A DNA stretch of 21,933 nucleotides from a virus. The position numbers and the translations under genes were made by a program. Of the stretch, positions 971 through 20,285 are shown in pieces. The notes below the pieces were generated by a model. It did not search any database. It had not been told where the DNA came from and worked only from the letters and a program-made list of their open reading frames with translations. The stretch is from the IMG/VR virus record IMGVR_UViG_3300028361_000136, positions 1-21,933 of that record; one strand, written 5' to 3'. Position 1 is the stretch's first letter. Every line of letters starts with the position of its first letter.

Positions 971-1188
971 GTGAGCATCCGAATCCCAGCCAGTATTGGT
1001 TCCACCGCAGGACAATGGCTTACGCCTGCTTAACCGCAATCATCGTGAGCCTTATCTGCGCCCTGACCGGAAAAATCCCTGAGCCAATGCTGCCGTTGGT
1101 TGAGGGATTATGCTGGATTCTCGGCTTCATCGTTGCGGCTTACTACACCAACAACGCGGCTGAAGCGTTCGCCAAGGTGCGCAAATGA
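967..1188 (+). CDS. Putative holin, two-span membrane protein
   Basis: 73 residues with a basic N-terminus (HRRT), a first hydrophobic helix (about residues 17-34), a short turn containing PEP, a second helix (about 45-61) and a charged C-terminal tail ending AKVRK. This size and topology match two-span holins, which form the inner-membrane lesion that triggers lysis. Of the three small membrane proteins between the endolysin and the spanins, it has the most holin-like layout. The gene starts within an ATGA overlap with the upstream gene and overlaps the next by the same arrangement, so it is translated as part of a coupled cassette. The holin call is inference from topology and context; no sequence-specific holin motif exists. 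Confidence 0.6.
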   Translation: MSEHPNPSQYWFHRRTMAYACLTAIIVSLICALTGKIPEPMLPLVEGLCWILGFIVAAYYTNNAAEAFAKVRK

Positions 1189-1550
1189 TCCCTTACGCCA
1201 AGCCCGCAATCGCCCTTGTCGCAGTCGCCGGATTAACCGCAGGCGGTTGGCTGGCCCGAGGCTGGTTTGAAGACAGCAAAGAACTCATCGCAATCACTGC
1301 ACAGCAAGCCCTAGCCGACGAAATCAGAGCGGGCCAGGCCGAAGTGTCACAGCTAGTTGAAAAGCGGCTGGGCGAGCTTAGAGCGAACGAGCGCGTGATA
1401 GACCGGGGAGTAATTCGTGAAATTCAAAAACCGATTTATCAGCGCGTGTGTCTTGCTCCTGACGCTATCAGCTTGCTCAACGATGCCGCCAGTGGTGTTG
1501 CCCGCGAATCTAACGATCAAATGCCCGCAAACCCTACCGCTGCTGACTGA
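1185..1550 (+). CDS. Rz: i-spanin (Rz-like), inner-membrane spanin subunit
   Basis: 121 residues. An N-terminal membrane anchor (IALVAVAGLTAGGW, about residues 9-22) precedes a long charged helical stretch (about 30-80, rich in Glu, Gln, Ala and Arg) that would cross the periplasm as a coiled coil. This is the usual i-spanin design: it pairs with an outer-membrane lipoprotein to fuse the two membranes in the last step of Gram-negative lysis. The identification rests mainly on the o-spanin gene that begins inside it in another frame at 1417. It overlaps the putative holin gene by four bases (ATGA). The sequence itself is not strongly conserved, as is normal for Rz proteins. Confidence 0.8.
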   Translation: MIPYAKPAIALVAVAGLTAGGWLARGWFEDSKELIAITAQQALADEIRAGQAEVSQLVEKRLGELRANERVIDRGVIREIQKPIYQRVCLAPDAISLLNDAASGVARESNDQMPANPTAAD

Positions 1551-1656
1551 CGGCACAGGTAAAGACGTTGTGCTGACCATGCGCGAATGGGCTTCCCAAT
1601 ATCACGATTGTTCGACTCGGCATAACGGCCTGGTTGACGCCCTTGGAGTTCAATAA
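1417..1656 (+). CDS. Rz1: o-spanin (Rz1-like) outer-membrane lipoprotein
   Basis: 79 residues from a GTG start at 1417, preceded by GGGGAG at 1405-1410. The basic N-terminus and hydrophobic core lead to a lipobox LSAC, with Cys20 as the lipidated residue. A proline-containing stretch (MPPVVLPA) follows the lipobox, as in many o-spanins. The gene starts inside the i-spanin gene in a different frame and runs about 105 bases past its end, so the pair is overlapping rather than fully nested. The mature lipoprotein would sit in the outer membrane and bind the i-spanin C-terminus. Start codon, lipobox and overlap together make this a secure call. Confidence 0.88.
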   Translation: MKFKNRFISACVLLLTLSACSTMPPVVLPANLTIKCPQTLPLLTDGTGKDVVLTMREWASQYHDCSTRHNGLVDALGVQ

Positions 1657-2819
1657 TGCCCGGAATCCCCGCGAACATCACAATCGAAGGCCGCACCCCG
1701 GCGACGATCAAAGGCCGCGTTGCGCCGCTGATTAATACACTGGCGTCTGCGCGTGGTGGGTTTCGGGCTGGGGATGATACGGGAGGTGGGGCTGCTCCGG
1801 TTGGTCTGTTTTTCCAAGACAATTTTAACGATCAGGCGGACTGGGATGCAACGATTGCCCCCGGTGAAGCCTATGCTGCCGCTGGAGATACATTACCAGC
1901 AGGATGGGATGCAGCCAGAACAACATCGGGGTGGTCGCCTTCCCGTGGCGCAGAGTATTCAGACGGCTTTGAGCCGCTTTATGTAAAGGCTGGCTCAGAA
2001 TTTACGCGCTCCGGCACTGGCAAAGCCCTTGTTGCATATCGTTCTGCACGAGAATCGTCAGCTTGGTGGGGGGATAAGATCCTATGCAAATTTCTACCAG
2101 AAGGGACAAAAAGTGTATTTGTGCGGTTTTGGATACGGTATCAACCCGGATGGACAAATCGCGGACAGACTAAAATATTCCGAGTCCAAGGCGCGGACAT
2201 GAATGAGAACATCTGGAACTCCAGCAGCTTGCGGCCAGGAGCCATCTGGGATTTTCAAGGAAATTCATATGGATCGAGGAATTTCATTTCCAGAAGATCG
2301 TCAGAGTTTGGGTGGACAAACCCGCCGATGGTTGGCACCCGACAGATTGGCACTGGGGGAGACAGCCCGCTTGATTGGCGCGTTGACAGCCATGACCTCG
2401 ATAACAACGGCACCCCAGACAACTACCCCCAATTGAGAAGTGCGATTGATAATTCGGTCATGACCCTTGACGGGAGCATCACCGAACACAGTGAGTTCAT
2501 GGGCTCTGCTTGGCACAAAATGGAGTTCTACATGGAAATGAACTCAGCAGCGGGCGAGCAAGACGGCAAGTTTGTGCAATGGGTAGACGACCAGTTAATT
2601 CACCGAAACCTTAAAATGCCGTGGCGTCAAAACGGCGCTGTTGGCTACGAAGATTTCAGGCTAGTTAAATTGGGTGGTAACGATGCTTGGTTTTCTGGGC
2701 AAGACGGGGCAGAAATCACCGACGAAATGAAGTTGCAAGAGTGGTATGCAATCGACGAGGTGCAAATCTACCTGAGCTTGCCGGAAGAGATGTCGTGGGT
2801 GTCAATGCCGCAGGTCTAA
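1656..2819 (+). CDS. Concanavalin-like jelly-roll protein, putative glycan-binding or lyase appendage
   Basis: 387 residues. The start forms a TAATG overlap with the o-spanin stop. The N-terminus holds a short duplicated motif (TIEGR and TIKGR, eight residues apart; DNA copies at 1683-1694 and 1707-1718), then a glycine-rich linker. From about residue 50 onward (FFQDNFND) the protein looks like a jelly-roll lectin, glucanase or polysaccharide-lyase fold. Typical strands include SVFVRFWIRYQPGW (about 151-165) and HKMEFYMEMNS, then KFVQWVDDQLIHRN (about 286-318), the usual layout in such domains. No signal peptide is seen. It could be a capsule-degrading or sugar-binding virion protein, but I cannot assign catalytic residues. 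Its location between lysis and packaging genes is the classical site for cargo genes in P22-like phages. Confidence 0.6.
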   Translation: MPGIPANITIEGRTPATIKGRVAPLINTLASARGGFRAGDDTGGGAAPVGLFFQDNFNDQADWDATIAPGEAYAAAGDTLPAGWDAARTTSGWSPSRGAEYSDGFEPLYVKAGSEFTRSGTGKALVAYRSARESSAWWGDKILCKFLPEGTKSVFVRFWIRYQPGWTNRGQTKIFRVQGADMNENIWNSSSLRPGAIWDFQGNSYGSRNFISRRSSEFGWTNPPMVGTRQIGTGGDSPLDWRVDSHDLDNNGTPDNYPQLRSAIDNSVMTLDGSITEHSEFMGSAWHKMEFYMEMNSAAGEQDGKFVQWVDDQLIHRNLKMPWRQNGAVGYEDFRLVKLGGNDAWFSGQDGAEITDEMKLQEWYAIDEVQIYLSLPEEMSWVSMPQV

Positions 2820-2847
2820 ACAGCAAAATTTTATTTGGAAGGTTTCT

Positions 2848-3744
2848 ATGAGTAATCCAAACGTAGCCGGCATTTTGGGAGGAATTGGTGGGGTAGGTGT
2901 GAAGACCCACACCTTTAGCGTTCCTTCAGGTGCTATTGCAGGCGAAAAACTTCTTCTTATCATTGCCGCGTATTCTGAAACCGGAGCCGGAAATTTTGAA
3001 ACTCCTGCCGGGTGGTCTGTCGGGGTAATGAACAGAAATGACAAAATCACTCTGTCTGTGTTTGAAAAAACTTCGACGGGTGGTGAGTCCACCGTAGCTC
3101 TGTCAGCGGAGCAAGGTGAAGCAACATCCTATGGATATGTACTAAGAGCTTCGGAGTGGGCAGACATTGAGTATGCTACCGTATTTGAGCAAGATGGATC
3201 TTTTAGTGTAACTTCTGTAACTGCGCCGACAGTCACACCGTCCTGGACTGAAGACACACTGTATTTAGTCATCGGAGCTAACGGACGAAGTAATAAGCTT
3301 TTCAATACCCCTGTAACTGGCTACACGAGCCTGGCTGGCGTATCGGGCGTAAATGCCGGTGGCCGGGGCGTTGGCCTACTTGTTGGGCATAAGCAAGGAG
3401 CTTCCTCGGCTGAAAGTCCTGGCGACTTAACGGCAGGAAACTATTCTGATTACAACTCGGTCACTATTGCGCTAAAAGCAGCGCCTGAGCCCGTTCCAAC
3501 AGTCACCACCACCGACACCCTGCAACCCGGCGAAGAGTTCACCCTAACCGCAACCAACTACGCCTCAACCCCAGTATCACCGGCCACGCTCACCGACAGC
3601 CAAGGCAGCACCATCACGGTTCCTGTCACAATCAGCGGCTCAGGGCCATACACAGCCGTGGGCACAATGCCAACCCTTGCCGAAGCGGTCACTGCGGGCA
3701 CGTCACTGTTGTTCGGCGATGTAACTATTGAGCTGTCCACCTGA
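2848..3744 (+). CDS. Beta-domain virion-associated protein of unknown function
   Basis: 298 residues starting at an ATG with GGAAGG a few bases upstream. Roughly residues 1-212 form one domain rich in Gly, Ser, Thr and Val (ending with VTIALKAAPEP), with strand-like stretches such as EKLLLIIAAYS and TLYLVIGANG. This pattern occurs in phage surface proteins with jelly-roll or Ig-like folds. The remaining ~85 residues, after a PEPVPTV linker, look like a separate small Ig-like beta-sandwich (QPGEEFTLTATNY to FGDVTIEL). It is coupled to the next gene by a TGATG overlap, so the two are probably made in fixed ratio and may form one structure. I see no catalytic motif or signal peptide. Confidence 0.55.
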   Translation: MSNPNVAGILGGIGGVGVKTHTFSVPSGAIAGEKLLLIIAAYSETGAGNFETPAGWSVGVMNRNDKITLSVFEKTSTGGESTVALSAEQGEATSYGYVLRASEWADIEYATVFEQDGSFSVTSVTAPTVTPSWTEDTLYLVIGANGRSNKLFNTPVTGYTSLAGVSGVNAGGRGVGLLVGHKQGASSAESPGDLTAGNYSDYNSVTIALKAAPEPVPTVTTTDTLQPGEEFTLTATNYASTPVSPATLTDSQGSTITVPVTISGSGPYTAVGTMPTLAEAVTAGTSLLFGDVTIELST

Positions 3745-5471
3745 TGGCTACCGTCGATGTCACCTACTCACCGGCAGCGGGGAGAAAGTTTGTCACCCTA
3801 ACAAGTTGGGCAGGTGACGCGGCATTCTCACCGACACCAGTGGCAGATGGACAGATCGAAGGGCCAGACGCGCTCACGATGGGCGCAGACGGGGTTGTGA
3901 CTGGCTCGGATGGCACGTATGCGCTGACGTATATTTCACCGACTGGCAATATTCAGGCGGCTAGTTACGAAATCGGCGAAGCGGCTGAATCAGCTACCGT
4001 CACGGCAACTTACGCCCCAGCAACAGGGCGTCAATTTGTATCGCTAACGTCATGGACCGGTAGCGCGACATTCGCTACTACGCCCACGGCTGGCAGTCAG
4101 ATCGAAGGCCCAGACGCGCTGACGATTGGCAATGACGGCGTAATCACTGGCCCCGACGGCACGTACACGCTGAATCACATCACCCCGGCGGGCGTTATCG
4201 AGTCGTTGAGTTTTGTGATAACCACGGCTGACACCACCGCGCCTATCATCTCGGCGTTGACCGCTGCGGGGACTGACCCTGACACAATCGACGTGGCCTT
4301 TAGCACAGACGAAGACAACGGCACGGCGTATTTCTTTGCATCCGGCAGTGCAACCGAGACAGCCGCAGCAATCAAAGCTGGAGCCCAGGGCAGCCAAGCT
4401 GTATCCGCAACCGGCGAGCAGTCCCTAACGCTAACGCTTGCGACGGGCACGTATCGTATTCACGCGATGCACGAGGACGATGCGGGCAATCAGTCGAATA
4501 TATTGTCTAGCGCTGAAGTGGTGTTGGCGGCGATACCCGAAGTGGGCACAGGCACTGCGACCTACGCGCCGCCCGCCAATATGACGCTAACGATTGTGCA
4601 GGAGCCAGTAGACGAATACCTGACTGATGGATGGAGCAGCCCGCCTGAAACTGGCGAGCAGGTTCTGACGTTTACCGCAGAAGGCGCATTCGACCCCCAA
4701 TTAAATTGGTCCGGTCCGGCTGAAGGCGCGTTTGATTATTATTACATCAACAACGCCGGCGCTATGTTTCAGCGCACGATTACAACTGGCTCGCTGGATT
4801 CTCTGCCTGATGAGAATACAGAGGTTCCACAAGGCACCTGGACCATCGGCACAATTACAATCGGCGAGACCACTGCGAGCCTGACGCCCAGCTACAGCCT
4901 GACTGATGCAGCCAGCTATCAATATTCGATCAACTCCGGCGACTGGGTAACGTTTACCGGCACTATCTCGCTGACAAGCCTGGCAGATGATACGCCGTTC
5001 AGTGGAGCGTTAAGGGCTACAAATTCGGTGGGCAGCGGGGCTAGTGCGTCGTTTTCGTTTACGACGGATGCGATACCTGCCGAGCCAACGGTTCCGCAAG
5101 GCGCGATAACGGCGCTGTTCCCCGTCACAACTCAGACCGCAGCAGAAATCACGTTCTCGTACAGCGAAACAGATTCTAACGGCTTTGAGTATTCATCAGA
5201 TGGGTCAACATGGACAGCGGCCACTAGCCCGCTTGAGTTTACTGGCCTGACTGCCAGCACCACGTATTCAGTTCAACTGCGAGCCATTAACGACGTGGGC
5301 GCAGGTGAAGTAATCGGCATCAACTACCGAACCAAAGGCGAAGTGACCGTTGTCCCAGAGGGTGACTGGCCATTCTTCGTGCCCACTACCGTTGCGCCAA
5401 AAACATGGCAATGGAGTGGCAGGCATCCGAAGACCGGTATGCGGGTTCGGATATTCGTTGAGACACCATGA
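3744..5471 (+). CDS. Ig/FN3-like multidomain repeat protein, putative phage surface or adhesion protein
   Basis: 575 residues made almost entirely of beta-sandwich-like modules. Residues 2-77 and 84-159 are a tandem repeat with about 60% identity, sharing GR-FV-LTSW and QIEGPDAL motifs. Residues ~160-263 resemble a bacterial Ig-like domain (TTAPIIS to HEDDAGNQSN). Residues ~264-350 begin with TATYAPPAN, which recalls the repeat start. Two FN3-like domains follow at about 361-448 and 450-540; both open with VPQG and hold Y-(S/V)-x-x-LRA-N-VG strands. The C-terminal 35 residues (WPFFVPTT to RIFVETP) are distinct and basic. Such domains often mediate weak sugar or cell-surface binding on virions. 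The gene shares ATGA with the small terminase gene. The specific role is not known. Confidence 0.6.
   Translation: MATVDVTYSPAAGRKFVTLTSWAGDAAFSPTPVADGQIEGPDALTMGADGVVTGSDGTYALTYISPTGNIQAASYEIGEAAESATVTATYAPATGRQFVSLTSWTGSATFATTPTAGSQIEGPDALTIGNDGVITGPDGTYTLNHITPAGVIESLSFVITTADTTAPIISALTAAGTDPDTIDVAFSTDEDNGTAYFFASGSATETAAAIKAGAQGSQAVSATGEQSLTLTLATGTYRIHAMHEDDAGNQSNILSSAEVVLAAIPEVGTGTATYAPPANMTLTIVQEPVDEYLTDGWSSPPETGEQVLTFTAEGAFDPQLNWSGPAEGAFDYYYINNAGAMFQRTITTGSLDSLPDENTEVPQGTWTIGTITIGETTASLTPSYSLTDAASYQYSINSGDWVTFTGTISLTSLADDTPFSGALRATNSVGSGASASFSFTTDAIPAEPTVPQGAITALFPVTTQTAAEITFSYSETDSNGFEYSSDGSTWTAATSPLEFTGLTASTTYSVQLRAINDVGAGEVIGINYRTKGEVTVVPEGDWPFFVPTTVAPKTWQWSGRHPKTGMRVRIFVETP
3747..4220 (+). 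repeat. Tandem 246-base coding repeat (two copies)
   Basis: Two consecutive copies with a period of 82 codons encode residues 2-77 and 84-159 of the Ig/FN3-like protein. Copy one covers about 3747-3974 and copy two about 3993-4220. Around 47 of 76 aligned residues match, and the DNA is near-identical over the stretch encoding QIEGPDAL (around 3856 and 4102). This shows domain duplication within the gene followed by divergence. Confidence 0.85.
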
Positions 5472-5950
5472 TGAAAAAGCTAACCGCAAGGCAGTCGCTT
5501 TTTGTGGGCGAGTACCTTGTTGACCTAAACGCTTGCCACGCCGCAGTCAGAGCAGGCTATAGCGAGAAAACCGCGAGCAGGATTGGCCCTGAGCTACTTG
5601 GAAAAACTTGGGTTGCCGAGGCTATCCAGAAGCGCATGAATGAGCGGTCAAAGCGCACAGAGATCAGCGCCGACTTTGTGCTCAACGGCATCATGAAGAA
5701 CATATCCCGATGCGAGCAAGGGGAGCCGGTTAGAGACCGTTCTGGCGAGCTTGTAATGATCGAAACGGACGACGGCCTAATTGCCCCGGCATACAAATAC
5801 GACGCATCAAACGCGCTCAAGGGGTACGAGCTGATAGGTAAGCACTTGAAGCTATTCACCGACAAGCACGAACACGCCGGTCCCGGTGGCGGGCCAATCC
5901 AAAACGCCGTCACGTTCAACTTCACAGGCGTCAATGCAGATTCAGATTAA
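5468..5950 (+). CDS. Terminase small subunit
   Basis: 160 residues, close to the 162 of P22 gp3, but the motifs are those of the Terminase_2 family. They are an N-terminal LTARQSLFVGEYL helix, then NACHAAVRAGYSEKTASRIG (a helix-turn-helix-like DNA-binding segment), and a helical remainder with MIRN-like oligomerisation features (FVLNGIMKNISRCEQG). The small subunit recognises the packaging site on phage DNA and recruits the large subunit. The start is the first of two adjacent ATGs and overlaps the upstream stop (ATGA). The C-terminus overlaps the start of the large subunit by 17 bases, which is the usual arrangement. Packaging by a headful mechanism is expected from the relatives but is not shown directly. 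Confidence 0.85.
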   Translation: MMKKLTARQSLFVGEYLVDLNACHAAVRAGYSEKTASRIGPELLGKTWVAEAIQKRMNERSKRTEISADFVLNGIMKNISRCEQGEPVRDRSGELVMIETDDGLIAPAYKYDASNALKGYELIGKHLKLFTDKHEHAGPGGGPIQNAVTFNFTGVNADSD

Positions 5951-13846: not shown

Positions 13847-14079
13847 TGCGACAAGATAGCGCTGTCAGTTACGCCGACCTTGAGCGCCTTGGCTGGCCTA
13901 AATTCATGATTGACGACTATATGGGCCGGTTGCTTGAGCTATCACCCCAGCGGGGCGCCACGACCGACCCTAACGGCGTATACGCGGCTAACATCAACGG
14001 GATGTACGTCAACACGGCATCTAATGCCTTGTGGTTCAACCCAACGCCAGGGAGCCTAACCGGATGGATAGCTCTTTAG
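13843..14079 (+). CDS. Small protein in the tail-needle slot, function unknown
   Basis: 78 residues, starting in an ATGATG that overlaps the gp10-like stop. The N-terminal half is helical (YADLERLGWPKFMIDDYMGRLLEL) and the C-terminal half is Asn/Gly/Thr-rich (NGVYAANINGMYVNTASNALWFNPTPG), a pattern seen at tips and sheets of phage fibres. In P22 this slot encodes the 233-residue coiled-coil needle gp26; this product is far too short and has no heptad repeat. It might be a compact tail plug or a structural part unique to this group. I do not recognise its family. It overlaps the next start by 16 bases and lies in a dense coupled operon, so it is very likely expressed. Confidence 0.7.
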   Translation: MMRQDSAVSYADLERLGWPKFMIDDYMGRLLELSPQRGATTDPNGVYAANINGMYVNTASNALWFNPTPGSLTGWIAL

Positions 14080-14411
14080 AGTTCACCCCCTACTCTGGCG
14101 ACCTAATGGGCCTGCCTACCAACGAAAACCATATGATATTCCGCTGGAATCGGAAGGACTGCAAAGTTCTGTTCTCAGCTTCACGCCGGGGCAATGCCGC
14201 ATCCTGCCATTTTGCAAGCGACAAGCGAGGATTGCGCCACATCAAAGAAGCCGTTGACGGGTTTGTGCGTTTCGCTTTCTGGCTGTTTGATTGGTGCGAG
14301 ATGGTTCTGGCGCAGGTGGGCCGCGCAAGTGTGGGCAGGCTCATCGAGAAAACGGGCTTTATTCCCGTGGCTGAAATTGACGACACAACGGTTTATGCGA
14401 GGGCAAGATAA
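14064..14411 (+). CDS. GNAT-fold protein in the P22 gene 14 position
   Basis: 115 residues from the ATG at 14064, which has GGGAG eight bases upstream (14051-14055); a GTG further up (14031) is less likely. The sequence resembles small phage acetyltransferase-fold proteins: a CHFASDKRGLRHIKEA segment, a Trp/Phe-rich strand (FAFWLFDWCEMVLAQVG), and a typical GNAT C-terminus with SVGRLIEKTGFIPVAEIDD then TVYARAR. A normal acetyl-CoA loop (Q/R-x-x-G-x-G/A) is not evident, so catalysis is uncertain. P22 gene 14, also between the needle and ejection genes, encodes a head-assembly protein that I recall as GNAT-like. The role here is likely the same, a structural or assembly function, but this is inference. 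Confidence 0.68.
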   Translation: MDSSLEFTPYSGDLMGLPTNENHMIFRWNRKDCKVLFSASRRGNAASCHFASDKRGLRHIKEAVDGFVRFAFWLFDWCEMVLAQVGRASVGRLIEKTGFIPVAEIDDTTVYARAR

Positions 14412-16726: not shown

Positions 16727-18675
16727 TCGAAGTTGAGCTCCCAGATGGTCGCATAGTCGAGATCGACACTGACGACCCGCAGCAGGCGGCAAAGGCCGCG
16801 CAAAAGTTTATGCAGAGCCAGCCAGCCACTGAGGCCCCGCAAGATGCCCCTATGCCTGAAGGGAGCTTTGCCGACTCCATTATTGAGCCAATCCAGGCGA
16901 TAGCCGGTGGAATGGCTACTCAGGCAGTATCCGGCTTATCGGGCATTGCAGGCGCTGTGATGCCAGGGCCGCAAGGCCAAGGGCTTGCCACCATGCAGCA
17001 AACGCAACAGGCATTGCCAGACTTTGCCCCTGAGACTCAAGCAGGGCAGCGAGGGATGCAGACAGTGGGCGATCTGATAGAGCGGGGCGTTGACCTTGTA
17101 AACTTCCCCATATCGGGGCTTGCTGGGCTTGCCGAGCTTATTGGCAGCGGCGGAAATATCGACAGCGCAGCAAGCGTGGTTGGTCGCGTTCAAGAAGAAG
17201 GTGTAGGCCCGATGATGGGCGATGCCGTTCTTGAGTCCACAGGATCGCCGGCACTGGCTACAGCGGCAAGCATGGCACCCGACATTGCCGGGGCGGTTGC
17301 AGGTTTTAAGGGCGGGCAGATTGCAAGTAAGCCAGCTATCGCAAAGCTGAAGCAAATGGCCGATGCCAGAAAGCAAAAAATCCTTTTAACGCCTGACGGT
17401 GAGTTATCGCCTGTTTTTGAAAGGGCATTGAAGCGAGAAGGTATAACACTTGATGCCATTGTTGACGATATTCAAGCGCTGCCGGAGATAGCCGACCCCA
17501 GGCAGGCTGTCAGAGATCTGATTAAGAAAAAGATCCAGCGCGGCGATACTGATGGCGCTTTAGCCACAAAGCGCCTTGATACGATGGGCAACATTGTTGA
17601 TGACCCGCTAGGCGCTGCGGCAGTCAAGCAGGGATTTGCGCCGGGTGATGTGCAAGCTATAAAGAATGCAAAGCTTGGCAGCAATAGAGCCATGCAGGAA
17701 ATGGTACGGATTAATCAGTCTATCTTTGATAACACTCGACGTGCCGTTGATATTCAACCTACCGACGTTATCGGGCGCTCTGCAATAGGCCGGTTTAATC
17801 ACATACGCGACACGGCGAACCGGGCCAGCCAGGAACTAGATTCTATTGCCAGCAGCCAGCTAAAAGGCCAGCAGATAGATTCTGCGCGTGTTACTGACGC
17901 CTTTTACCAGCAGTTAGCCAATCGTGACATAAAGATAGATGCGTCAACCTTTCCGCCTAAGCTGGACTTTAAAGGTTCAGCCATATCAAAGAGCCGGGCA
18001 GATCAGCGTGTTGTGCAAGATACGCTAGACCTTCTGTCAGAAGATGAAGTGGTTGACGCACTCAGAGCACACAAGTTGAAGCGCCAACTGGACCGGATGA
18101 TTGACTACAAGAAGGGGAAGCCTGGAGAGCTAACACCCGACGGTGAGCGGGTGGCCAAATCAATCAGAAAAGCTCTTAACGATTCTATCCGCGATGTTAA
18201 CGATGACTACGCACGAGTTAACGATACGCTCAGCCAGTCTCTGACGGCCATAGGCGACTTTAAGGATGTTCTAGGGCCATCCATTAACCCATTTGCCGAG
18301 GGAGCCGAGAAAGCCGTAGGACGCGATCTGAGGGGCTTGCTCAGTAACCGAAAAACTCAAACCAAGCTAGAGAATGCGGTCAGACAACTGGACGAGGTGG
18401 CCAAAGACCTCGGCGGCGAATTTACTGACGATATTGGCGACCTGGTGAACTTTAACGGCATACTTCAGGGTCGCTTTGGGTCTACTCGTCGAGAGTCATT
18501 TGCTGGTCAGATAGGGTCAGAGATAAGCCGTAACGCAAACACCGCACTAGAAGGCAAAGCCGGATTGACTCGAATGGCGATTGATAAAGCCGGGGAAGGC
18601 ATCGAGGCAGCACGAAACATCAACGACCAAGAAGCGTTTAAGGCAATTAATAGACTTTTGAGGGAAAGACAATGA
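16723..18675 (+). CDS. DNA ejection protein, gp16-like, membrane-active
   Basis: 650 residues (P22 gp16 is 609), ATGA-coupled to the previous gene. The N-terminus IEVELPDGRIVEIDTDDPQQAAKAA is a motif often found at the start of large phage ejection proteins. Several Gly/Ala-rich hydrophobic stretches follow (about residues 53-85, 126-145 and 174-203). They could insert into the host membrane, in line with the membrane-perturbing role of P22 gp16. The remaining ~430 residues are charged and helical, including a likely coiled coil (KLKRQLDRMIDYKKGKPG). No lysozyme or transglycosylase motif is seen. It is the last of the ejection set and is followed, in ATGA overlap, by the tailspike adaptor. 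Confidence 0.78.
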   Translation: MIEVELPDGRIVEIDTDDPQQAAKAAQKFMQSQPATEAPQDAPMPEGSFADSIIEPIQAIAGGMATQAVSGLSGIAGAVMPGPQGQGLATMQQTQQALPDFAPETQAGQRGMQTVGDLIERGVDLVNFPISGLAGLAELIGSGGNIDSAASVVGRVQEEGVGPMMGDAVLESTGSPALATAASMAPDIAGAVAGFKGGQIASKPAIAKLKQMADARKQKILLTPDGELSPVFERALKREGITLDAIVDDIQALPEIADPRQAVRDLIKKKIQRGDTDGALATKRLDTMGNIVDDPLGAAAVKQGFAPGDVQAIKNAKLGSNRAMQEMVRINQSIFDNTRRAVDIQPTDVIGRSAIGRFNHIRDTANRASQELDSIASSQLKGQQIDSARVTDAFYQQLANRDIKIDASTFPPKLDFKGSAISKSRADQRVVQDTLDLLSEDEVVDALRAHKLKRQLDRMIDYKKGKPGELTPDGERVAKSIRKALNDSIRDVNDDYARVNDTLSQSLTAIGDFKDVLGPSINPFAEGAEKAVGRDLRGLLSNRKTQTKLENAVRQLDEVAKDLGGEFTDDIGDLVNFNGILQGRFGSTRRESFAGQIGSEISRNANTALEGKAGLTRMAIDKAGEGIEAARNINDQEAFKAINRLLRERQ

Positions 18676-19199
18676 CCCCAATTCAGACCAATAAGCCCGT
18701 GTTTTTCGACTCAGAAGGCGAGCCCCTGAACGGGTCCATCTTCATTGGCCAGCCCGACCAAGACCCACGCGCATCACCAAAAACCGTGACGCTTCGTGAT
18801 TCGGGCGGCGTCGAGTTCCCCGCAGGCACGAAACTGAACGTCAACGATGGCCGCATCACTTACAACGGAAAGCCCATCATTGCGCTCGTTGACGGCAACT
18901 ACTCCATGCTGACGCTGGACGAGTCGGGCGCCCAGGTGGATTACTCGCCGCTGGTAGAAGTGCCGGGAGGTAGTGGCGCCGACTTTACTGGCGTAATTCG
19001 CTTCGGCCTGACGCTGACCAACATCAAAGCCTTTGACGTGTCTGTGGGTGACGCTGTGCGCAATATCGGCAAGGTTACGGCCACCGATGGCGAGGGCAAG
19101 GACTGGCTTGTAACGAGCAATACGGGGTCATCTGGCGATGACGTGGATTTGATTGATTTCAGCAACGGCTTGCAGGGCCAGAGCTACACCATCGCATAA
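18672..19199 (+). CDS. Tailspike head-binding adaptor (P22 gp9 N-terminal domain type), no receptor domain
   Basis: 175 residues. Residues ~5-95 match the P22 tailspike head-binding domain: KPVFFDSEG, LNGSIFIGQPDQDP (P22: GKIYIGQIDTDP), RITYNGKPI (P22: KIVYNGQLV), and YSMLTLDESGAQVDY (P22: HSMAIYDANGSQVDY). Residues ~100-175 form a second small domain (VRNIGKVTATDGEGKDWLV) common after such head-binding domains. The protein stops where the beta-helix of the P22 spike would begin. It would trimerise on the gp10 hub and carry another protein, most likely the fibre encoded next. GAGGG at 18660-18664 serves as ribosome site; the start overlaps the upstream stop (ATGA). Confidence 0.85.
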   Translation: MTPIQTNKPVFFDSEGEPLNGSIFIGQPDQDPRASPKTVTLRDSGGVEFPAGTKLNVNDGRITYNGKPIIALVDGNYSMLTLDESGAQVDYSPLVEVPGGSGADFTGVIRFGLTLTNIKAFDVSVGDAVRNIGKVTATDGEGKDWLVTSNTGSSGDDVDLIDFSNGLQGQSYTIA

Positions 19200-19208
19200 G
19201 GAGTCATA

Positions 19209-20285
19209 ATGGCCACGGTACAAAGCTACCCCGTCCGACCGTTCACCGAGCAGCAAAAATTCTTTGTTTATGACCCGGCATCAAAAACCAGCTCACTCGT
19301 GACCGGTGCGGATATTAAGCAATCCATTCAGGCAGGTGAGTCTGCCGTTGTCGCAACCTCAACATTTAAAGCACTGAAAACAGAAAGCTACAAAGTTGGC
19401 ACGATTGTCCAGACTTCTGGCGGCGAAGCGATCGCTGACGAATCGAATGGCCTGTACGTCATTCAACCCCCAGGCAGTGGCGGCACCGTAATATTCAACG
19501 GCAACGAGGCCGTGGAGCTTCCGCTGGTTAACTTTGTAGTATCAGACGCATCTAGTGCCACAGTTGTGAATGACGCCGGTACACGCACGATAGAGGTGCT
19601 GGCCGATGCGGTAGACCTTAAAATATTCCGCGCCACGAATGCCGCTGCCGTTGCAGCACTTCCGGCAGTCGCAGGCTATCAAGTGCTCATGTCCGGCGCC
19701 CCCTCCGGCCTCTTTGAGTTCTCCACAACCAACTTTGCCTCAGCCGTTGGCAATGACCCCGGCAAGCTCGTTTACATCCCGCCATCGTCTGACGCGACGG
19801 GTGCGAGTGGTGCGTGGGTGAAAAAAAGCGGCACTGAAGTTGGCGAGGTCATTACGTTCGCCGGTAATGCCGCGTCGCTGAACCGAAAGTATGGCCAAGG
19901 CTGGCGCATTGCTGATGGCACTGACGGCACGCCAAATCTAACAGACGCTTTCCCGAAGTTCGGCACGTTCGTGCAGAAGTCAGATACAGGTGGCGCGAAA
20001 ACTATTACGCCCGCGGGCTCTGTTTCGGTGGCCAATCACACGCTATCAGTTGCGCAAATGCCATCTCACGATCACCCGGTGCCAATGTATGTCGGCAGTG
20101 GCGCGTTTGGTAGACCATTACACCAAGGCGGCGCCTCAACAAGCAATGCAAGCACCAGTGGCGCAGGAAGTAACGGCGCTCACGCTCACGGCGCATCCTT
20201 TAGCGGCTCTAACCACACCAACGAACCCCAATTTACCTACCTCGTTCCCCTCTACTTCACCGGCGTTGCTGGCTCTTACTCATAA
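19209..20285 (+). CDS. Tail fibre with collar-type receptor-binding tip
   Basis: 358 residues, with a strong AAGGAG five bases before the ATG. The N-terminal ~40 residues (YPVRPFTEQQKFFVYDPASK) are typical of phage fibre leaders. Residues ~52-108 and ~142-208 (TFKALKTESYKVGTIVQTSG; VYIPPSSDATGASGAWV-like YIPPSSD to GAWVKK) resemble neck modules that precede beta-helices in tailspikes. From ~211 a tail-collar type domain begins: GEVITFAG, YGQGWRIADGTDGTPNLTDAF, TLSVAQMPSHDH, then a Gly/Ser/Asn-rich stretch with HAHG. The SHDH and HxH groups recall the metal-binding trimer tips of T4 gp12 and gp37. It would bind the host receptor. The Gly/Ser-rich tip is the part expected to vary among relatives. 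Confidence 0.82.
   Translation: MATVQSYPVRPFTEQQKFFVYDPASKTSSLVTGADIKQSIQAGESAVVATSTFKALKTESYKVGTIVQTSGGEAIADESNGLYVIQPPGSGGTVIFNGNEAVELPLVNFVVSDASSATVVNDAGTRTIEVLADAVDLKIFRATNAAAVAALPAVAGYQVLMSGAPSGLFEFSTTNFASAVGNDPGKLVYIPPSSDATGASGAWVKKSGTEVGEVITFAGNAASLNRKYGQGWRIADGTDGTPNLTDAFPKFGTFVQKSDTGGAKTITPAGSVSVANHTLSVAQMPSHDHPVPMYVGSGAFGRPLHQGGASTSNASTSGAGSNGAHAHGASFSGSNHTNEPQFTYLVPLYFTGVAGSYS

Follow-up and report, generated by a model that had tools for sequence, protein, structure and literature searches.

Three adjacent genes in the virus record IMGVR_UViG_3300028361_000136, a 21.9-kb fragment analyzed here at its full length (the window), form a mobile cassette in which an enzyme domain and the head of a second protein are exchanged between phages. 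These genes, here called open reading frames (ORFs) A, B, and C, lie between the spanin and terminase genes of a phage whose head and tail genes are P22-like (portal, coat, gp4-like accessory factor, stabilization protein, and injection protein). On balance, we infer that the block encodes a modular fiber, located in the virion, that presents an enzyme able to degrade or bind exopolysaccharide (EPS). The cassette and its parts are laid out as follows:

1185-1550, plus strand: Rz-like spanin gene, left border
1417-1656, plus strand: Rz1-like spanin gene, overlapping the former, left border
1656-2819, plus strand: ORF A, 387 amino acids (aa); N-terminal tag and predicted jelly-roll glycan-enzyme domain
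1656-1769, plus strand: constant N-terminal tag of ORF A, MPGIPANITIEGRTPATIKGRVAPLINTLASARGGFRA, ~38 aa
1797-2816, plus strand: swappable enzyme domain of ORF A
2848-3744, plus strand: ORF B, 298 aa
2848-3465, plus strand: variable head of ORF B, residues ~1-206
3490-3741, plus strand: constant, immunoglobulin (Ig)-like tail of ORF B
3744-5471, plus strand: ORF C, 575 aa; Ig/FN3-repeat shaft
3747-4229, plus strand: tandem duplication in ORF C
4869-5363, plus strand: two FN3-like units in ORF C
5331-5468, plus strand: C-terminal segment of ORF C, presumed anchor
5468-5950, plus strand: terminase small subunit gene (TerS; PF03592, E=4e-25), right border

The mosaic structure of the cassette carries this finding. 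While tblastn searches against 50,697 phage records gave no match for ORFs A and B, and an FN3-type match only for ORF C, scans of IMG/VR showed that the A-B-C order recurs in other phages. A DNA comparison of the window with three unrelated phage contigs (L003/L007, L005, and L008) revealed two shared blocks. One starts where ORF A starts and ends at 1769-1781, at 90-95% identity, and thus covers the tag; in L005, it begins at the last 30 nucleotides (nt) of Rz1. The other extends from 3490-3502 through the tail of ORF B into the beginning of ORF C, at mostly 76-83% identity, and the B tail retains 71-83% aa identity among phages. Outside both blocks, the sole other match to the window was a 90-nt patch in the enzyme gene of L008. 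In contrast to the near-identical tag, the enzyme domains of these cassettes share 35-42% protein identity, and the heads of ORF B, replaced by other sequences in the relatives, are unrelated or very divergent. The same pattern was found in the lambda-like phages L016 and L019, which have a common tag (MPNNGAYNNQAA...) and ORF C proteins that are 96% identical, while their enzymes are 47% identical. Constant attachment modules (the tag and the B-tail/C region) with a swapped enzyme and B head are modularity of the kind seen in fibers and receptor-binding proteins.

The phages that bear the cassette come from marine or saline settings, and most are uncultured. Among isolates, the Marinobacter phages PS3 and PS6 have related blocks with related ORF C proteins, annotated as hypothetical, and the A-B-C block is not discussed in the passages of the PS3 paper that were consulted. 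A limited literature search returned no account of the cassette, of its sharing across virion kinds, or of an enzyme module from an EPS-cluster family, and nothing on point for a phage depolymerase derived from an EPS cluster. Modular fibers bearing depolymerases are already known; what appears to be new here, within that search, is the cassette, its sharing across virions, and the EPS-cluster enzyme family.

Some variants of the cassette deserve mention. In L005 (3850-5400), Rz1 contributes its last 8 codons to a fusion with another short ORF (MPAPTQWKAADLTPAPIKASDGSIRTVLG...LVDALGVQ) that resembles an alternative tag. The gene upstream, to which the cassette of this contig is joined, is thus a different one, and ORF A there carries small frame-breaking indels, perhaps assembly errors. 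In two Marinobacter prophages, L090 and L091, the A-B-C order is kept but the A modules differ (465 and 429 aa, respectively) and may be further enzymes or lectins occupying the same slot.

In the window itself, the cassette is translationally coupled into the late operon. The Rz-like gene matches phrog_1152 (E=2.7e-18), and the Rz1-like gene matches LysC (PF23793) and phrog_456. The first-pass annotation, made from the letters of the window, had described a three-gene block between spanins and terminase, coupled by overlaps. The block is present as described, and because relatives in other phages conserve the frames, we regard ORFs A, B, and C as real genes. The overlaps hold for Rz1-A (TAATG, 1654-1658), B-C (TGATG, 3742-3746), and C-TerS (ATGA, 5468-5471), but not for ORFs A and B, which are separated by 28 nt containing the ribosome-binding-like sequence TTTGGAAGG. 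As that annotation had also stated, no signal peptide was evident by inspection in any of the three proteins. It had placed the block where P22-like phages usually carry small cargo genes or nothing; the block is, however, no small cargo peculiar to the window phage, but recurs as a cassette in Marinobacter-type phages.

The cassette is found in phages with different particles: HK97-type, lambda-like, and other podovirus-type phages, in addition to the P22-like window. Specifically, the terminase, portal, and capsid of L008 are HK97-type, L016-L020 have lambda-type terminases, and those of L003 and L012 are of yet another type. In several of these, a known anchor accompanies ORF C. ORF C of L003/L007, and likewise that of prophages L090 and L091, terminates in the Gp77 fiber-tail adaptor domain (PF23148, above the Pfam cut-off), known from podophage GP4; this corresponds to three lineages (genomes G002, G003, G119, and G040, of which G119 and G040 carry L090 and L091, respectively). 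In L008, a gene for a spike base of the RcGTA Rcc01079 family directly follows ORF C; among 11 records, this spike base (NF048002) was found only there. The RcGTA head spike, held by an Rcc01079 homolog, lets RcGTA attach to the host capsule (PMC7296036, PMC10218006). The anchor looks like a module of its own, suited to the particle type and encoded either by the last part of ORF C or by the gene after it.

The jelly-roll alignment was also used to search 84,980 genomes. Relatives were found mainly in Marinobacter, and also in Saccharospirillum, Tamilnaduibacter, and Salinibius; a further one was found in a metagenome-assembled genome binned as Flavobacteriaceae, in which the neighboring genes match the Marinobacter cluster. 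These proteins are ~370-407 aa long, and almost all have an N-terminal hydrophobic leader. Their genes are surrounded by genes for glycosyltransferases, CapK-like, hexapeptide-transferase, and PcRGLX-like proteins, a Wzx flippase, and WecB/WecC (UDP-sugar) enzymes, the neighborhood of the Salinibius copy (L034) being an exception. Matches were present in 27 of the 124 Marinobacter species genomes. Twenty Marinobacter loci were fetched: L070 proved to be a lambda-like prophage cassette, and EPS clusters house 18 of the 19 others. We therefore rejected the explanation that the host matches are prophages, with L070 as the exception. One genome, G015, contains both this prophage cassette and its own EPS-cluster copy (L071).

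The domains of phages and hosts are homologous (26-61% identity) and keep the invariant residues, while their settings differ: the host proteins carry a leader peptide and lack partners B and C, whereas phage copies have the ~38-aa tag and are part of a late operon. ORF A shares the homologous domain and the invariant columns of this Marinobacter-type family. It does not have the family's signal peptide or EPS-cluster location, and instead carries the phage tag at a site between Rz1 and TerS. In trees, a single phage clade of enzyme domains was rejected by the approximately unbiased test (p=0.0005 with 20 sequences, p=2e-7 with 34 sequences), and the enzyme of L003 nests within a host clade (support 97/92). 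Since phage and host domains interleave, exchange between them was repeated, although the trees leave the direction of each transfer unproven. A supposed near-identity between the enzyme of L020 and a Marinobacter flavimaris protein was discarded, as the two are 47% identical. The Marinobacter EPS clusters at L024-L035 and L071-L089 also encode a large PcRGLX-like protein of ~860-880 aa, and some of them a ~570-aa protein without a Pfam match, which may resemble heparinase II/III enzymes.

The fold of ORF A is consistent with a glycan-active enzyme. An AlphaFold2 model, built from an 18-sequence alignment, reached a predicted TM-score (pTM) of 0.78, with the first 46 residues, including the tag, disordered. 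In a fold search of this model against the PDB, the nearest structures were two Teredinibacter TtX122 domains, the alginate lyase Aly36B (E=2e-7), vAL-1, and GH16 enzymes, all of which are jelly rolls; a viral fold library returned solely generic jelly-roll matches. The query-normalised TM-scores are modest (0.30-0.42), and therefore support the fold class, that of a polysaccharide lyase (PL)/GH16-type beta-jelly-roll, rather than a family. The jelly-roll likeness proposed by the first-pass annotation is borne out for ORF A by both model and fold search. The closest characterized enzymes by fold are thus the PL36/PL14 lyases Aly36B and vAL-1, from which ORF A differs in having no significant sequence match: a profile search of the PDB found nothing, and no sequence homology to Aly36B (PL36) was detected. 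The PL14 profile (PF21294) does not match ORF A, and the family to which it belongs has no name; relatives score 18-19 bits with this profile, below the Pfam gathering score of 27 bits. A match to the glucuronan lyase 2zzj (E=0.44) was not used as evidence. Residues R129, K173, R176, R208, K288, D303, and G341-N342 are all kept in the window's domain, and the six charged ones (R129 to D303), which could line a cleft, are, like N342, invariant or nearly so across 41 phage and host sequences. Taken together, ORF A is probably a jelly-roll enzyme, either a polysaccharide lyase or a glycanase.

ORFs B and C are the proposed fiber components. ORF B matches no family in Pfam, PHROGs, or NCBIfam. Its C-terminal ~90 aa look Ig-like, and a PDB phmmer match to CD276 (E=8.5e-7) is taken as a hint of such a fold; the N-terminal 205 aa gave no usable AlphaFold model (pLDDT 38). 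The duplicated and FN3-like modules previously noted in ORF C were confirmed. Residues 2-80 and 84-162 form a tandem repeat (61% identity, E=5e-34), the unit of which is present as a single copy in L008 and L003. The two FN3-like units are 34% identical to each other (E=2e-11), and one of them matches fn3 (PF00041, E=4e-6), the only family found for ORF C in the same three databases. In L012, L013, L016, PS3, and PS6, but not in L008 or L020, the last ~24 residues of ORF C show a period-4 aliphatic repeat (p=0.003-0.02 in a test picked after seeing the data), and in those same five phages a small fourth gene follows ORF C, that of PS3 being related as well. In concept, this resembles the docking peptide with leucine repeats on the RcGTA head fiber (PMC7296036), and it is only suggestive that these tails are docking peptides.

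These observations can be combined into a mechanism. ORFs A, B, and C would be made late in infection, along with the spanins and terminase. ORF C would form an Ig/FN3 shaft, attached to the particle by its C-terminal end or by a downstream partner, and ORF B would be a fiber component with an exchangeable head. ORF A may dock onto the B/C complex through its constant tag. On contact with Marinobacter-like hosts, its jelly-roll domain would cut, or at least bind, their EPS coat and so give the particle access to the cell surface. Because the tag and the B-tail/C region are constant, recombination at these sites could swap the enzyme and the B head between unrelated, co-infecting phages while assembly is kept; this step is supported by the mosaic pattern. 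A comparable architecture exists in the branched depolymerase systems of KP32-like Klebsiella phages, where an exchangeable enzyme is linked to its anchor protein through an N-terminal peptide that is short and conserved. The depolymerases there are beta-helix proteins, unlike the jelly roll of ORF A, and the likeness is architectural.

Several observations weigh against a virion-borne, EPS-degrading fiber in the window phage. ORF A reaches the cut-off of no family model in Pfam, PHROGs, or NCBIfam, and no catalytic residue was placed on a solved enzyme. The window enzyme is the most divergent of the set, with at best ~36% identity to any other, and its substrate may therefore differ; given its long branch, its exact origin is uncertain. 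The window, which is a fragment, showed neither a spike base nor a Gp77 domain nor any other known anchor, and the C-terminus of its ORF C has no relative except in a record of the same phage. Searches for a host of the window phage found none, and no P22-like portal was present in the 124 Marinobacter genomes, so that its host is not established.

The cassette also adjoins lysis genes, which would fit an enzyme released at lysis as well. The most serious competing explanation follows from this: A, B, and C would be late, non-virion proteins that, once freed, clear EPS and allow progeny to diffuse. Coupling to the spanin genes agrees with it, lysis would make a signal peptide superfluous, and a soluble factor could be common to phages with different heads and tails. 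The constant short tag, the Gp77 domain that closes ORF C in three lineages, and the spike base after ORF C in one point instead to particle attachment, and we consider a soluble factor unlikely. Somewhat less probable again is that the fiber is non-catalytic, with ORF A serving as a lectin-like receptor-binding protein that attaches to EPS without cutting it. Many ConA-like jelly rolls are lectins, catalytic residues are unassigned, and PL14 matches stay below the cut-off, but the possible cleft residues are near-invariant in all 41 sequences, and EPS clusters commonly include a single secreted enzyme that cuts glycans.

Alternatively, the genes could be cargo for lysogenic conversion that changes the EPS of the lysogen or blocks superinfection, like the morons near cos in lambda-like phages. 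The interval between lysis and terminase genes is a typical moron site and several carriers are temperate (PS3, the G015 prophage); set against the missing signal peptide, the late-operon translational coupling, and the fiber-anchor domains of relatives, however, we judge this very improbable. A promoter of its own was not seen either, though none was looked for. Adhesion to mucus, another earlier suggestion, received no support.

The modular virion fiber, the reading we prefer, bears on the proposal of the first-pass annotation, which is partly supported, that the block supplies a depolymerase in place of a missing spike enzyme. One further gene of the window is relevant here:

18672-19199, plus strand: 175-aa protein carrying the head-binding domain of a P22 tailspike but lacking an enzyme domain; may serve as a partner or docking site

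It matches PDB entry 1lkt (E=1e-6) and scores 23.8 bits with PF09008, just below the cut-off of 24; the head-binding domain is absent from ORF A. As this domain stands without an enzyme, another protein may do the work of the spike. The role would likely be that of a P22-type tailspike, which differs in being a beta-helix, while ORF A is modeled as a jelly roll. The EPS-cluster homology of ORF A, its PL/GH16-type fold, and the lone head-binding domain argue for the depolymerase part of the proposal. For attachment to the virion, also part of it, the evidence is indirect and comes from anchors in homologous cassettes of other phages, as none was found in the window's own ORF C. The window likewise differs from the RcGTA head spike (Rcc01079 base, Rcc01080 fiber), a capsule-directed surface fiber, in lacking the spike base. 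We know of no enzyme module of the ORF A kind in that spike.

The origin of phage depolymerases and the movement of specificity between unrelated phages are largely open questions. Here, one enzyme family occurs both in host EPS clusters and in a phage fiber cassette, once within a single genome (G015), which suggests that the phage turns the bacterium's own tool against its slime coat, the family being shared with the slime-coat genes of ocean Marinobacter. As a broader and more tentative scenario, to which we give somewhat less than an even chance, Marinobacter-type phages of at least 4 virion kinds (P22-like, another podovirus type, HK97-type, and lambda-like siphovirus) may exchange EPS-degrading enzymes through this cassette, drawing them repeatedly from host EPS clusters, with the tag and fiber sequences as swap handles and a separate, virion-specific anchor. 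From the occurrence of the family in both settings, two directly testable predictions follow: the phage enzyme should act on the EPS encoded beside its host homolog, and the same enzyme module should work on particles of different morphology. This also suggests a route to predict substrates of unannotated phage enzymes, namely by reading them from the host EPS cluster in which the nearest homolog resides.

Two other genes of the window were noted. The gene following the head-binding protein (19209-20285) has the look of a short tail-collar-type fiber, and between the stabilization and injection protein genes, in the structural region, a 126-aa protein (14031-14411) appears by eye to be acetyltransferase-like.

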